DNA of 54,887 bases, from NCBI GenBank assembly GCA_030156255.1, contig JASGMV010000025.1:1-54887 (forward strand), given 5' to 3'. Numbering within the stretch: position 1 is the stretch's first letter; each line of letters begins with the position of its first letter. Shown piece by piece: positions 47,191 to 52,115 of this stretch. This stretch comes from Desulfovibrionales bacterium. Its GTDB lineage: Bacteria; Desulfobacterota; Desulfovibrionia; Desulfovibrionales; Desulfovibrionaceae. The translations under genes and the position numbers were made by a program. The notes under the pieces were generated by a model that saw nothing but the letters and a program-made list of their open reading frames with translations, was not told the DNA's origin and ran no database searches.

Positions 47191-48564
47191 TCAACCCAGC
47201 GGCAGCGTCCGCTCAGGCAACCGGTAGCGGGGCTCCGTCTGCCAGGAGTGCAACGCCGTGAGCAGCCAGACCGGCCCCAGGCGTCCGATGAACATCAGCA
47301 AGGATATGACCAGTTTGCTTCCCGTGGTCAACCCTGCGGTCAACCCCATGGACAACCCCACCGTGCCGAAGGCCGAAATCGTCTCGAACAGGGTCTCCAG
47401 CAGGCCGGCCCGGGCCAAGGGATGCGACTCCACGCCGCCTTCCGCGGCCAGCAGCAGCAACGTGGCCACACCGATGAAAAAGAAACTGAAGATGAGCAGC
47501 GTCAGAGCCTTGTTCACGCTTTCGGAATCTATGGCGAACCGCCCCACGCGCACCTGGTCCCGGCCCAGGAATTGAGCCCGGATGAATCCCCACCACACCC
47601 GCAGCGTGGTCGTCTTGATCCCGCCGGCGCAGGAGCCGGGCGATCCTCCGATGACCATCAACAGCATCATGATGACCAACGACACGTTGGTCATCACGGA
47701 AACGTCCAGCGTGTTGAAGCCCGCGGTGCGGCACGTCACGGACTGGAACAGCGACTCCAGAACGAGCGCACCCAGTCTGACCTGCCGATGTCCGCCGGCC
47801 AATTCGGCCAGGAAGATGGCGGCTGCGCCGACAATGACCAGCATCGCGCTGGTCCGCAGGACGACCCTGGACGGCCAGCTCAACCACGCTTCGGGCTGCG
47901 GACCTTCGCCGCGTTTGGCCCTAAATCGGGCTGCAAGCCAGCGAGGCAGTCCGGCCAGTTCATACAGAACGGCGAACCCCAAGCCGCCCAGCGTGATCAA
48001 AACCATGATCACCACATTGACCCCGATCTGGTCCTTGAATTGGACGAGGCTGTCCGAATAGAGGCCGAAGCCGGCGTTGCAGAAGGCCGAAACCGAGTGG
48101 AACAAGGCCGACCAAAGACCGAATCCGCAGGGGTTGAGCCAGTGCAGCAACACGGCCCCGACCAACTCCACGCAAAAGGTTCCAGCCACTACCTGCAAAA
48201 TGAACCGAACCAGATGGAAGGCCGGATCGTGCAACAACGTCTGGCTCACCGAGATGCGGTCGGACAGGGACACGCGCTTCCGGAAGAGGTACAGCGCCAG
48301 GGTGGTGTAGGTCATGATGCCGAGTCCGCCGAGCTGGATCAACCCGAGAATGACCGCCTGCCCCAGATGATTGAAACTGGTCCCGGTGTCCACCACCGAC
48401 AGTCCGGTGACGCACATGGCCGAGACCGACGTGAACAGGGCGTCCACCAGCGAAAGGTCCCCCCGGTGGCACGGCGCCCAGCGCAGCACCGCCGCGCCCG
48501 CGAAAATGGCGAGCGCGTAAAACCACACGGGAAGCCAAAACGGCGTCAGCAGTCTATTTTTCAT
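47191..48564 (-). CDS. ktrB: Potassium uptake membrane subunit, KtrB/TrkH type
   Basis: The 457-residue membrane protein has the four pore-loop repeats of the Trk/Ktr/HKT family, each with the filter Gly: SVSAMCVTGLSV, SVSAFCNAGFGL, SVTCRTAGFNTL and TISAFGTVGLSM. It transports K+ (often with Na+) and works with KtrA. ATG at 48564 overlaps the end of aroK by 11 bases, and no separate ribosome binding site is seen, which suggests translational coupling. The longer frame start at 48603 lies inside aroK and lacks membrane character. Confidence 0.93.
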   Translation of the reverse strand: MKNRLLTPFWLPVWFYALAIFAGAAVLRWAPCHRGDLSLVDALFTSVSAMCVTGLSVVDTGTSFNHLGQAVILGLIQLGGLGIMTYTTLALYLFRKRVSLSDRISVSQTLLHDPAFHLVRFILQVVAGTFCVELVGAVLLHWLNPCGFGLWSALFHSVSAFCNAGFGLYSDSLVQFKDQIGVNVVIMVLITLGGLGFAVLYELAGLPRWLAARFRAKRGEGPQPEAWLSWPSRVVLRTSAMLVIVGAAAIFLAELAGGHRQVRLGALVLESLFQSVTCRTAGFNTLDVSVMTNVSLVIMMLLMVIGGSPGSCAGGIKTTTLRVWWGFIRAQFLGRDQVRVGRFAIDSESVNKALTLLIFSFFFIGVATLLLLAAEGGVESHPLARAGLLETLFETISAFGTVGLSMGLTAGLTTGSKLVISLLMFIGRLGPVWLLTALHSWQTEPRYRLPERTLPLG

Positions 48565-49105
48565 GGGAGTTGCAGTTCCGCCGCCCGGGCCGCAGGCGCT
48601 CACAGGCCCGTTCGACCAGTTCCTCCAGGGGCAAACCGGCGTCCAGCACGACGTCGGCGGTCTGCCTGTACAGCGGTTCGCGCCGAGCCAGGACGTCGCG
48701 CACCTCGTCGATGACGGTCCCGCCCGTCAGGGACGGCCGCTGGGCCTCCAAGGGATCGCTGGCCAGCCGCCGGGCCAGGATTTCCGGATCCGCGCACAAA
48801 TAGGCAACCTGGCCTCTGGAGAGCACGGCCCGGTTCTCCGGTTTCAAAACGATCCCCCCTCCGCAGGCGATGACGCCTCCGTCCTTGCCGGCGAGGGCCG
48901 CGGCCTGGTTCAAGGCCCGGGTTTCTATGGCGCGAAAACTGTCCCACCCGCGAACGGCCACGTGGTCCGCGATGCTTTGGCCAAGCAGGGTTACGGCCAA
49001 GTCGTCGGTGTCGAGGAAAAGAATGTCCAGCCGCTCGGCCAGGATTCGCCCCAGGCTGGTTTTGCCGCTGGCCCTGGGGCCGACAAGGAAAATCGGACGC
49101 TGCAT
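48554..49105 (-). CDS. aroK: Shikimate kinase
   Basis: The 183-residue enzyme phosphorylates shikimate with ATP. The P-loop is GPRASGKTSLG (9-19), followed by DTDD for Mg/shikimate binding, an Arg in RGWDSFRAIE, and GGGIVL. GGGGAG precedes the ATG at 49105. It is the first gene of a minus-strand set with ktrB, ktrA and aroC; thus two shikimate-pathway genes flank a K+ uptake system. A terminator of the preceding gene lies at 49131-49166. Confidence 0.93.
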   Translation of the reverse strand: MQRPIFLVGPRASGKTSLGRILAERLDILFLDTDDLAVTLLGQSIADHVAVRGWDSFRAIETRALNQAAALAGKDGGVIACGGGIVLKPENRAVLSRGQVAYLCADPEILARRLASDPLEAQRPSLTGGTVIDEVRDVLARREPLYRQTADVVLDAGLPLEELVERACERLRPGRRNCNSHEK

Positions 49106-49130
49106 GCAGTCTCCCCAAAGGAGCTTGATC

Positions 49131-49166
49131 AAAAAAACCGGCCCCCGCCAACGCGGAGTCCGGTTT
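49131..49166 (-). terminator. Rho-independent terminator after the 555-residue protein gene
   Basis: On the minus strand AAACCGG (49160-49166) pairs with CCGGTTT (49135-49141), with a paired G/C interior, and is followed by a run of T. It lies about 60 bases after the stop of the 49225-50892 gene and upstream of aroK. Confidence 0.8.
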
Positions 49167-49224
49167 CATACCAAGCGGGGGGGAAGCGCGTCAATGTCTG
49201 CTCAAGAGCGCTTTCCGGGGAGGC

Positions 49225-50892
49225 CTATTGCTGGTCCTGCGCCACGGCCTTCGCCGGGCTCAGGGACCGAAACACCTGGAAGGCGTCGTCAAACGTCAGA
49301 TCGAGTCCGGCGGCCATGCCCGCCGACGCGGCGGCGGCGTTTTCGTCCGTGTCTTTCAAAGAGCCGAGCAAGGTTTGCACAGAACTCTGGGACTTGCCCT
49401 GAGCAGACACTTCCGAGGTGACGCGCGTTTTGAGATAATCAGCGCCATCCTCGAGCCGGACGATGGACTCCTTGGATCTGACTTCGCTCCTCTGCCGCAG
49501 CTTGCCGTTTTCATCGTAGTTCTCCACGACATGCGACGTGCGGTCCAAGGTCGCCCGGTACTCGTCTTCGGCCAGGGCTCCGCCGATACGGAACTCCAGC
49601 CCGCCCTCATGAAGATTCTCAACGCCCTCCTCGGTGTCCTTGCGGCGCAAGGTCAGCTCGCCTTCTCTGTTGTAAATCTCGGTCTCCCATCTCACGCTAT
49701 ACGGCCGGTCGGAGGCTCGGCCTTCGGAAATATTTTCCGCCGTGTCGAACTGGCCTTTTCCCACATATTTCTGCAGAGCGTCGGTGAAGAAGCTGGCGTC
49801 CGAGGAGCTTTCCAGTATCGAATCGGACAGCAGCTCCGCCCCGCTCTTCGTCTCTTCGGTCACATATTCTTCTTCGCTAAGATTCAACAAATCCAAAATA
49901 TTCGGGCGCTCCGGCAAAGCCGAAAGCTCCGTTTCCGACATGGACAGCTCGCCATGGGTCCTCTGGACCAACTTCCCGTTGGCGTACCACGACGAACTGA
50001 AGGATTGCTCCAGTTCCCCGTCCTCCGTGCCTTCGAAGTCCTTCACATGATCCTCGAAGAGCGAGTCCCGGACCTTCTCGCCATCGGCGTCGAACTCGAC
50101 GATTTCAATGGAGAACAGGCTGTCGGCGCCCACCTGCTCCATGCTCCACGCGGCAAGATCATCCGTCGGCACGTCGGAGCGGTTGGCCTTGCTCACGTTC
50201 GTGGATTCGCGGTTGATTTCAATGCTGCGCCGCAGTTGTCCGTCCGTATACTCCTGGATCGAGCCATGATACGTGCTGACATGCTGGTCTTGGGACACCT
50301 TGGCGCCCTCGGTCCCCATGTCCCCAAGGTCAATGTATTCGCTCCGCAGAAGCATCGAGTCCGTCATACTGCGTGTGAGTTCGCCATGTTCGAACCACTG
50401 GAAGGACCGCCTCACGGACGCCACCTCGTCCTCGTTCTCCGACATCTCCACCGTGCTCGTTTGGCGCACCTCGCCGGTCGCGTCATAAAGCTTGGTGGTC
50501 ATGGAGACGCCGCGGTCCGACACGGAGCCGTTGATCGTCCGAACGAGCCGGCCTTCCTTGTACTCATTGACCGTGAACTCGCCGTCCTCGACCTCGACCT
50601 CCCGGGTGACGCCGTCCTTCAGGCTCTGCGTCCCGCTTTCCAACCCCAGGCGGTCGAGCCACTCCTTGGCCTTTTCGCCGAACTCGGTTTCTTCGGGCTC
50701 CTCCTGCTTCAAAGAATATTTCACCCTGGCCTCTTCGGAAATGGAAGCGATGTCCCCGATATCCAGCGGCGTCCCGATGGCGCTTTCCCGGACGGAACTC
50801 CGCTCGACGGCCGTCGAAGATTCACTTTCTGCGGTCGAGTAGGCCGAGACCCCCGAGCCATATGCTTGTAGAGGAAAGATGGACTGTGTCAT
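49225..50892 (-). CDS. Unknown 555-residue repeat protein
   Basis: I do not recognise this family. The protein is acidic and Ser/Glu-rich, with no signal peptide and no membrane segment. It contains at least eight copies of a beta-hairpin-like unit of the form [YWF]-x2-[DENH]-G-[EKQR]-[LV]: YKEGRLVRT (111), YDATGEVRQT (136), WFEHGELTRS (166), YTDGQLRRS (215), FDADGEKVRDS (267), WYANGKLVQRT (302), YNREGELTLRR (407) and YDENGKLRQRS (459). This resembles YD or MORN-type repeats but with irregular spacing. The C-terminal 50 residues are Ala-rich. No ribosome binding site precedes the ATG; a sigma-28-like promoter ends six bases before it. It is a single-gene unit with its own terminator. Confidence 0.8.
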   Translation of the reverse strand: MTQSIFPLQAYGSGVSAYSTAESESSTAVERSSVRESAIGTPLDIGDIASISEEARVKYSLKQEEPEETEFGEKAKEWLDRLGLESGTQSLKDGVTREVEVEDGEFTVNEYKEGRLVRTINGSVSDRGVSMTTKLYDATGEVRQTSTVEMSENEDEVASVRRSFQWFEHGELTRSMTDSMLLRSEYIDLGDMGTEGAKVSQDQHVSTYHGSIQEYTDGQLRRSIEINRESTNVSKANRSDVPTDDLAAWSMEQVGADSLFSIEIVEFDADGEKVRDSLFEDHVKDFEGTEDGELEQSFSSSWYANGKLVQRTHGELSMSETELSALPERPNILDLLNLSEEEYVTEETKSGAELLSDSILESSSDASFFTDALQKYVGKGQFDTAENISEGRASDRPYSVRWETEIYNREGELTLRRKDTEEGVENLHEGGLEFRIGGALAEDEYRATLDRTSHVVENYDENGKLRQRSEVRSKESIVRLEDGADYLKTRVTSEVSAQGKSQSSVQTLLGSLKDTDENAAAASAGMAAGLDLTFDDAFQVFRSLSPAKAVAQDQQ

Positions 50893-50898
50893 GCAATT

Positions 50899-50926
50899 TT
50901 ATCGGATGTCCGCTTTCAAAAATTTA
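50899..50926 (-). promoter_or_regulatory. Sigma-28-like (flagellar) promoter of the repeat protein gene
   Basis: On the minus strand TAAATTTT (50919-50926) and TCCGATAA (50899-50906) each match the sigma-28 boxes TAAAGTTT and GCCGATAA at seven of eight positions, with a 12-base spacer (consensus 11). The -10 ends six bases before the ATG, so the transcript would be nearly leaderless. Confidence 0.35.
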
Positions 50927-51006
50927 GGAGCAACGCCCCCCGTCTTTAAAAAAAATTACAAAAGCGTTTACTCTCTTTGAACATAAAAGAATCACTTCTA
51001 CAAGAA

Positions 51007-51042
51007 AGCCCGCGGATCGCTCGACGGTCTGCGGCGCGGGCT
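51007..51042. terminator. Hairpin between the repeat protein and YchF-like genes
   Basis: A perfect 8-bp stem AGCCCGCG / CGCGGGCT encloses 20 bases. TTTCTTGT follows on the minus strand and CTTT on the plus strand. Since both flanking genes start from this region, it more likely sits in the leader of the YchF-like gene than at a transcript end. Confidence 0.35.
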
Positions 51043-51101
51043 CTTTGCCAACCATGGGCTTTGGTGCTACACAGCAGCACCTCAATGAAGGAGAAAAACG
51101 T

Positions 51102-52115
51102 ATGCGCACCGCCATTTTCGGCTTCAGCGGCTCCGGAGTTTCCGAACTGTTCGCGGCCCTGGCCGGGCCCAAGGCCGCGGCCGCTGGCGCCCGGGCCATG
51201 TCCAAGGTTCCGGAGCCGCGGCTCGATCCGCTGATCGCTCTGTTCACGCCGAAGAAGATCACCTACAGCGAGATCGAATTCATCGACACGCCGGGCGGCG
51301 GAACCCGCAGCGGAGGACTTGGCGAGCGGACCCTGGTCGAAGTGCGGTCGGCCGACTGCCTGCTCGGCGTTTTGGACGCCTTTTCCGGGCTCAACGACCC
51401 GGCCGCTCAAATGGAGGCCATCGAAACGGATTTCCTGGTGGCCGACCTCGCCGTGGTGGAGAAACGCCTGGAGCGGCTGGCTCTGGACAAACGCAAGAAC
51501 AAGGACCTCGTCGACCCTGAAGAGGAGAAGGCGCTGCAGGCGGTCATGGAGGTGCTCGAGTCCGAGCGCCCCCTGCGCAGCGAACCGGAGCTGGCGCAGG
51601 CCGGAGTGCTGCGAGGTTTCCAATTTCTGTCGGGCAAACCCGTGCTCTACGCCTGGAACCTGCCCGAATCCGAGGTGGCCGGATTCACCCCGCCCGAAGC
51701 TCCGAACGGGGCGCTCATCCTGCCGGTGGCCGCACGCTTCGAAAAGGAGTTGGCGGAGTTGGAGGATCCCGAGGAGCGCGAGATGTTTTTAACCGACCTC
51801 GGCATTTCTGAGTCCGCCTTGAACCGGGTTATCCGGGGCGTCTACGAGCTCTTGGGGCTCATCTCCTTTTTCACCGCCGGAGACAAGGAAGTGCGGGCCT
51901 GGCCGGTGCGGGACGGCGCCAAGGCCCCGGAAGCCGCCGGAGTCATCCACACCGACTTCCAAAAGGGATTCATCCGGGCCGAAGTCCTCGGCTACGACGA
52001 TTTCCTCAAGGCCGAAAATTTCAAAAAGGCCAAAGAGCTCGGCCTGTTCCGCCTGGAAGGCAAGGAATACCTAGTCAAAGACGGCGACATCGTCGAATTC
52101 CGCTTCAACGTGTAA
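51102..52115 (+). CDS. YchF/Obg-like protein with TGS domain and altered P-loop
   Basis: The 337-residue protein aligns with the YchF/OLA1 P-loop ATPase group: N-terminal Rossmann part, DTPGGG at the switch II position, NLPE (N-x2-E) where YchF has its adenine-selective NVAE, and a C-terminal TGS-like domain (GVIHTDFQKGFIRAEVLGYDD ... KDGDIVEFRFNV). The P-loop reads GFSGSGVSE: Val stands where the catalytic Lys should be. Nucleotide hydrolysis is therefore probably lost, and the protein may bind ribosomes without catalysis or be a paralogue of true YchF. GAAGGAG precedes the ATG. Confidence 0.85.
   Translation: MRTAIFGFSGSGVSELFAALAGPKAAAAGARAMSKVPEPRLDPLIALFTPKKITYSEIEFIDTPGGGTRSGGLGERTLVEVRSADCLLGVLDAFSGLNDPAAQMEAIETDFLVADLAVVEKRLERLALDKRKNKDLVDPEEEKALQAVMEVLESERPLRSEPELAQAGVLRGFQFLSGKPVLYAWNLPESEVAGFTPPEAPNGALILPVAARFEKELAELEDPEEREMFLTDLGISESALNRVIRGVYELLGLISFFTAGDKEVRAWPVRDGAKAPEAAGVIHTDFQKGFIRAEVLGYDDFLKAENFKKAKELGLFRLEGKEYLVKDGDIVEFRFNV

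Follow-up and report, generated by a model that had tools for sequence, protein, structure and literature searches.

To our knowledge, flagellar export of non-flagellar proteins is known mainly from a few pathogens. In Campylobacter jejuni, Feds and FspA are sigma-28-dependent, and FspA and FlaC are described as flagellum-secreted in passages of PMC9856085. The flagellar apparatus also exports proteins fused to the signal of FlgM, according to a part of PMC7911332. Here we analyze a 555-residue open reading frame (ORF) in a stretch of 54,887 nucleotides (the window) that spans positions 1 to 54,887 of contig JASGMV010000025.1 from a Desulfovibrionales bacterium of the Desulfovibrionaceae (assembly GCA_030156255.1). 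The original prediction, made from the letters of the window alone, had described a 555-residue ORF with a possible flagellar-type, leaderless promoter at 49225-50926. The ORF list confirms it and assigns it to the minus strand, with its ATG at 50892 and its stop codon ending at 49225; the far end of the predicted range, 50926, is the upstream edge of the promoter. We hold, with moderate confidence, that this is a late flagellar gene whose product would leave through the flagellar type III apparatus and act outside the cell.

49225..50892, minus strand: ORF of 555 residues that lacks a ribosome binding site and, as judged from its neighborhood and a terminator-like stem behind it, is probably monocistronic
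50899..50926, minus strand: sigma-28-like promoter, TAAA-N16-TCCGATAA, with six bases between it and the ATG

Conservation of a sigma-28-like promoter

A search of the same taxonomic family for relatives of the window protein gave 43 match rows, from which loci L001, L023-L051 and L007 (the second copy in genome G030) were aligned. Removal of L034, with an interrupted frame and an unclear start, left the 30 rows of alignment A2, on which promoter conservation was counted; the 12 unaligned rows are later copies in G237, matches in G277, G287, G289, G295 and G296, and fragments in G188. Ahead of the window gene the promoter reads TAAATTTTTGAAAGCGGACATCCGATAA (50926-50899) and is followed by the six-base spacer AATTGC, which agrees with the original prediction that sigma-28-like boxes end six bases before the ATG. 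Against the E. coli sigma-28 consensus, given as TAAAGTTT-n11-GCCGATAA in a passage of PMC2859248, the site matches 11 of the 13 scored positions with a spacing one base longer.

Promoters were scored over these 13 positions (TAAAG and GCCGATAA) at three spacings and within 150 nucleotides of the start codon. A score of at least 11 was reached by 23 of the 30 family members versus 2 of 210 neighboring ORFs, and a score of at least 10 by 29/30 versus 12/210, counts that overstate the independence of the observations because the members are related and their start codons were set by hand. Among 1200 shuffled upstream sequences, from a set that took part of the second copy in L028 and omitted L029, 0.7% reached a score of 11 and 6.6% a score of 10. 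The background ORFs used here and below (188, 210 or 272, depending on the length limit and the available upstream sequence) were called mechanically and include false ORFs.

The genome to which the window belongs encodes both FliA (sigma-28) and FlgM. Two of its three flagellin genes were inspected: one carries TAAAGTTT-N11-GTCGATGA and the second a weaker site. Flagellin is present in 35/35 genomes carrying the family versus 208/253 non-carriers (Fisher p = 0.0024). The region 48500-51400 yielded no sigma-70-like site, and the word fliA is absent from PMC4641369, a paper on sigma-54 in Desulfovibrio vulgaris. Expression of the gene very probably goes together with the flagellum-building program. 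The suggestion of a flagellum-linked protein made in the original prediction gains support, of a computational kind only, from the promoter in 29/30 members, the co-occurrence of FliA and FlgM, the flagellin count and the motif shared with FlgM that is described below.

A probable leaderless start

The claim that a ribosome binding site is missing was borne out, since the 20 nucleotides ahead of the ATG are largely promoter and hold no Shine-Dalgarno sequence. In E. coli aer, transcription was mapped to begin 6 bp past the -10 octamer (a passage of PMC2859248); applied to the window, this spacing would make the A of the ATG, or the base preceding it, the first base of the transcript. In the set just mentioned, 6 bases separate promoter box and ATG in the window gene and 7 in L025; for the 27 others whose site is recognizable, the distance is 43-108. 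The window protein and L025 pair in the family tree, with support values of 90/83 and in 93% of bootstrap trees, which is below the star mark of the tool, and share this layout, so that a single loss of the leader in their lineage is the simplest reading of the tree. Leaderless expression is likely for the window gene, as the original prediction had it, to judge from the agreement with aer and with L025; in most of the family the promoter stands farther away.

An N-terminal motif shared with FlgM and a near absence of cysteine

50719..50892, minus strand: serine/threonine-rich N-terminus (residues 1-58), predicted to be disordered and presumed to be an export signal, from the predicted local distance difference test (pLDDT) and serine plus threonine content
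50728..50754, minus strand: FlgM-like motif D-x-V-x-I-S-x-E-A, here DIASISEEA (residues 47-55), from motif comparison

Cysteine is nearly absent from the family, with 5 in 17,168 residues and 26 of the 30 members free of it, versus 1.45% in 188 neighboring background ORFs, five of which are cysteine-free; of 53 ORFs matched in length, none is. The N-terminus is rich in serine and threonine, which make up on average 29% of residues 2-46 in the family, 11% in the background and 15% in FlgM, and residues 1-68 of the window protein have pLDDT under 50 in the whole-protein model. A surface or secreted protein leaving by another route, with sigma-28 merely coordinating its synthesis with motility, might share several of these features, as cysteine depletion and an acidic, beta-rich and divergent sequence (aligned members are 24-34% identical to that of the window) fit many exposed proteins. 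We nevertheless regard that explanation as unlikely, given the FlgM-like motif and a crude count by which residues 1-42 contain no Sec-like hydrophobic stretch in any of the 30 members.

The motif D-x-V-x-I-S-x-E-A was found in 29 of the 30 members, starting at residues 32-54, and in none of 188 background ORFs; it was also found in 24 of 30 FlgM proteins, which are the best-scoring loci rather than all FlgM rows and were gathered with PF04316, a model that may itself include the motif. For FlgM and the background, and not for the family, the pattern also accepted valine as fifth residue. An 18-column profile of the motif built from the family only ranked 25/30 FlgM proteins higher than any of 272 background ORFs and 24/30 higher than any of 300 shuffles; two of seven other proteins with sigma-28-like sites also outranked the best background ORF. 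In local alignment, the profiles of the family and of FlgM matched over 25 columns with a probability of 71% and, for a single comparison, E 3.6e-5. A strict DNA pattern for D-x-[VIM]-x-I-S-x-E-A has a single match in the window's own genome, in the gene before flgM; the window gene, with alanine at the third motif place, escapes it.

A motif shared with FlgM could also mark a protein of the sigma-28 regulon that stays in the cytoplasm and binds sigma-28 as a second anti-sigma factor or decoy, tuning the expression of late genes, and the sigma-28 promoter would then provide feedback. PF04316 is, however, not among the 10 Pfam families matched by any of the 30 members at E <= 0.1, the local alignment leaves the remainder of FlgM uncovered, and such a role would explain neither the approximately 450 further residues nor the depletion of cysteine, all of which makes it quite unlikely in our view. 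Composition, N-terminus and motif together suggest instead that the product is probably exported through the flagellar type III apparatus. The literature search returned no paper with cysteine scarcity in flagellar exported proteins as its title subject.

A predicted beta-sheet body

50545..50562, minus strand: hairpin unit 1, YKEGRL (residues 111-116), aromatic residue in 30/30 members, glycine in 13/30
50467..50487, minus strand: hairpin unit 2, YDATGEV (136-142), aromatic 30/30, glycine 27/30
50377..50397, minus strand: hairpin unit 3, WFEHGEL (166-172), aromatic 30/30, glycine 28/30
50233..50250, minus strand: hairpin unit 4, YTDGQL (215-220), aromatic 30/30, glycine 21/30
50074..50094, minus strand: hairpin unit 5, FDADGEK (267-273), aromatic 30/30, glycine 30/30
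49969..49989, minus strand: hairpin unit 6, WYANGKL (302-308), aromatic 30/30, glycine 30/30
49654..49674, minus strand: hairpin unit 7, YNREGEL (407-413), aromatic 30/30, glycine 30/30
49498..49518, minus strand: hairpin unit 8, YDENGKL (459-465), within a sub-threshold MORN_2 match, aromatic 26/30, glycine 28/30
49933..50697, minus strand: predicted antiparallel beta-meander of one helix and then 14 strands (residues 66-320), from AlphaFold2

At least eight hairpin units of the form [YWF]-x2-[DENH]-G-x-[LV] had been claimed for the protein. This exact pattern has four matches (mean 0.10 and maximum 2 in 2000 shuffles), and the count of eight holds in a looser form, written after the units had been seen, which finds separate units at residues 111, 136, 166, 215, 267, 302, 407 and 459 (10 matches if overlapping ones are counted; the shuffled sequences gave a mean of 0.34 and at most 4). 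The units are irregularly spaced. They align in orthologs, a point on which the claim had been open to refutation beforehand, with the aromatic residue kept in 26-30/30 members and the glycine in 13-30/30, unit 1 being the weakest.

The units might place the family among MORN_2-repeat proteins of the YwqK kind, as a cytoplasmic binding or immunity protein. MORN_2 (PF07661) is the only Pfam family matched by more than two of the 30 members at E <= 0.1 (13/30), but the window protein reaches 23.4 bits against a gathering cut-off of 29.6, the unit spacing is irregular, and the N-terminal motif and the promoter would go unexplained. We consider this assignment very unlikely. An AcrF2 match (Pfam, E 1e-4) in one of the 30 members was taken as chance.

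Structure prediction, which had been suggested as a check, was carried out with AlphaFold2 without alignment. It yielded a beta-meander for residues 66-320 (pLDDT 80.8, predicted template modeling score 0.69) and only a poor model of the whole protein (pLDDT 46.8), at which confidence a Foldseek search with the latter was uninterpretable. The weak top rows for the fragment were an RHS core (E 0.011), teneurin and a porin-like protein; no RHS family is among the 10 Pfam families matched by the 30 members. When the Foldseek rows were re-aligned, OspA came out best, with Z 13.2 and a root-mean-square deviation (rmsd) of 4.0 over 153 residues for chain 6kk9_B, and Z 12.6 and an rmsd of 2.7 over 141 residues for a second chain, 5z1o_A, followed by outer-membrane barrels at Z about 10-12 and rmsd 6-9. 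A sequence-profile search of the PDB returned two rows only (E 0.7 and 0.76). The body is predicted to fold as one long antiparallel beta-sheet. The original prediction could place the scaffold in no known repeat family, which holds in part, the sub-threshold MORN_2 matches and the predicted OspA-like sheet giving it some kin. A fold shared with OspA would say nothing on function.

Proposed mechanism and points against it

In the mechanism that we propose, FliA would transcribe the gene as class III after FlgM has left the cell, and in the lineage of the window the transcript would begin with the ATG, or a single base ahead of it, and be translated without a leader. The disordered, serine/threonine-rich N-terminus with its FlgM-like motif would address the product to the flagellar type III export apparatus, through which it would pass unfolded; we infer that the near absence of cysteine follows from export in this state, for which the literature gave no confirmation. 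Outside the cell, the protein would fold into a long antiparallel beta-meander, an OspA-like sheet of [YWF]-x-x-[DE]-G hairpins, and have its role at the filament or on the cell surface, with adhesion or the sensing of surfaces as the likeliest task. Transcription by sigma-28 is the firmest step and appears well supported; the promoter and its conservation, the motif and the cysteine depletion emerge from sequence comparison, and the adhesive role outside the cell is a guess.

Several observations weigh against this reading. The evidence for expression, export and location is computational throughout. L007 is the sole member of the 30 without a recognizable promoter, and the start codons were set by hand after plus-strand promoter scores were known. 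A pattern scan of the window's own genome found 16 sites versus 7 for a reversed control (14 versus 8 with a looser pattern), a small excess that makes single sigma-28-like sites weak evidence, and approximately 5 of the 16 sites have no convincing downstream gene. Global alignment of the family and FlgM profiles gave only 15% probability, the motif match being short. At L112 (G277) and L113 (G244) the N-terminal motif (GDTVTISEEARK) stands on a different body in which cysteines are present, and no sigma-28 site was seen before L113. The structural model derives from one sequence and covers a fragment only, the whole-protein model is of low confidence, and Foldseek gave no match to the fragment at E <= 0.001. 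Lastly, no conserved neighbor links the family gene to flagellar genes in the surveyed neighborhoods.

Sigma-28 escorts FlgM. The N-terminal segment might be a portable address of the FlgM type, sigma-28 both transcribing the genes and binding D-x-V-x-I-S-x-E-A in the encoded proteins so as to deliver these to the export gate, an idea that we put forward as doubtful. If true, this bacterial family would possess a flagellar secretome, to which the window protein, the L016 protein and the 138-residue protein encoded just before flgM would belong. A sigma-28-controlled, nearly cysteine-free family with a FlgM-like motif would extend flagellar export to a whole bacterial family, the motif would serve as a sequence tag for finding more members, and the window gene adds two candidates, one for a long single-layer sheet of natural origin and one for a leaderless sigma-28 gene.

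Distribution of the family

A search with the single protein found matches in 2/59 genomes, its own and G030. The three-protein profile matched 35/288 genomes of the same taxonomic family, in 10/44 genera, and 31/297 across the order, and the 30-member profile matched 36/348 across the class, all 36 in the same taxonomic family; among these, G244 matched in the N-terminal stretch only. The order and class samples are, among the genomes shown, dominated by the window's own family, so that absence elsewhere was tested only partly. Contig scans with the single protein and with alignment A1 gave no relative; the search across genomes did. NCBIfam holds no match to the window protein, and the literature search found no title describing the family, subscription papers being mostly outside its reach. 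The family is fast-changing and is without description in the databases searched. At L060 (G237 C1:687181-692968) it occurs in three tandem copies.

Gene neighborhood and other genes behind sigma-28-like sites

49137..49158, minus strand: two overlapping terminator-like stems, weak, in the interval from the 555-residue gene to the following ORF of this strand

The gene is probably a stand-alone, monocistronic unit. The stems behind it count as weak evidence, since the scanned region holds 8 such stems against a shuffle mean of 3.4. The neighborhood survey recovered the family gene in 19/21 loci, L069 and L070 having lost it to a competing ORF through greedy ORF choice, and considered neighbor clusters with at least three loci (clusters 16 and up fall below). 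Clusters recurring across genera (six proteins scanned) belong to broad superfamilies at varying distances, such as GGDEF or histidine kinase proteins (a cluster in 7 loci) and ATP-binding cassette (ABC) transporter ATPases (5 loci); the remaining recurrent clusters are mostly confined to one genus.

The genes behind the 16 sites in the window's own genome include a gene for a 138-residue protein followed by flgM, neuB, and several genes for proteins without a Pfam match. The 138-residue protein (L014/L114, C59) lies between a sigma-28-like site and flgM and contains EDAVTISKEAK. Four cysteine-free proteins with a sigma-28-like site ahead, L015 (C63), L013 (C44), L020 (C96) and L017 (C80), have no Pfam match at E <= 0.01 and are candidates for a flagellar secretome. 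L016 (C77, minus strand, about 1-770) is an ORF behind such a site that is truncated by the contig end; it has no Pfam match, its N-terminal motif, QDTAFFSEEAQ, resembles that of the family, and its DTGAGDD repeats are reminiscent of RTX repeats. NeuB (by Pfam; L012, C40) and an ORF that looks by eye like a glycosyltransferase (L018, C86) also stand behind sigma-28-like sites, and perhaps serve flagellin glycosylation.

Comparison with known systems

The family resembles FlgM (PF04316), the exported anti-sigma-28 factor, in carrying the motif D-x-V-x-[IL]-S-x-E-A about 35-45 residues in and in being nearly cysteine-free (FlgM has 2 cysteines in 3304 residues), and flgM also lies behind a sigma-28-like site in the window's own genome. 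It differs from FlgM in leaving PF04316 unmatched, in lacking the rest of FlgM, and in being approximately five times longer with a beta-rich body. With MORN_2 repeats (PF07661) it shares Y-x-x-[DEN]-G-x-[LV] hairpins, but it stays below the Pfam cut-off, its units are irregularly spaced and the predicted strands are longer. Because these profile tests failed, the family is filed neither as FlgM nor as MORN_2.

OspA is described in a part of PMC12183334 as dumbbell-shaped, with a single-layer sheet at its center, and as a tick-midgut adhesin. The predicted meander aligns with it at Z 13.2 (6kk9_B) and Z 12.6 (5z1o_A), a likeness of prediction only, with identities of 14 and 16% in the two rows, that the PDB sequence search missed; unlike OspA, the window protein has no visible lipoprotein leader. 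Compared by description only, Feds, FspA and FlaC of Campylobacter jejuni differ in that the passages of PMC9856085 mention neither a 555-residue beta-sheet body nor a FlgM-like motif for them. They have in common with the family a sigma-28 promoter, an acidic sequence, the lack of a known structural flagellar domain and export by the flagellum, which is presumed in the family. The Feds, FspA and FlaC set is its best analogue in kind.
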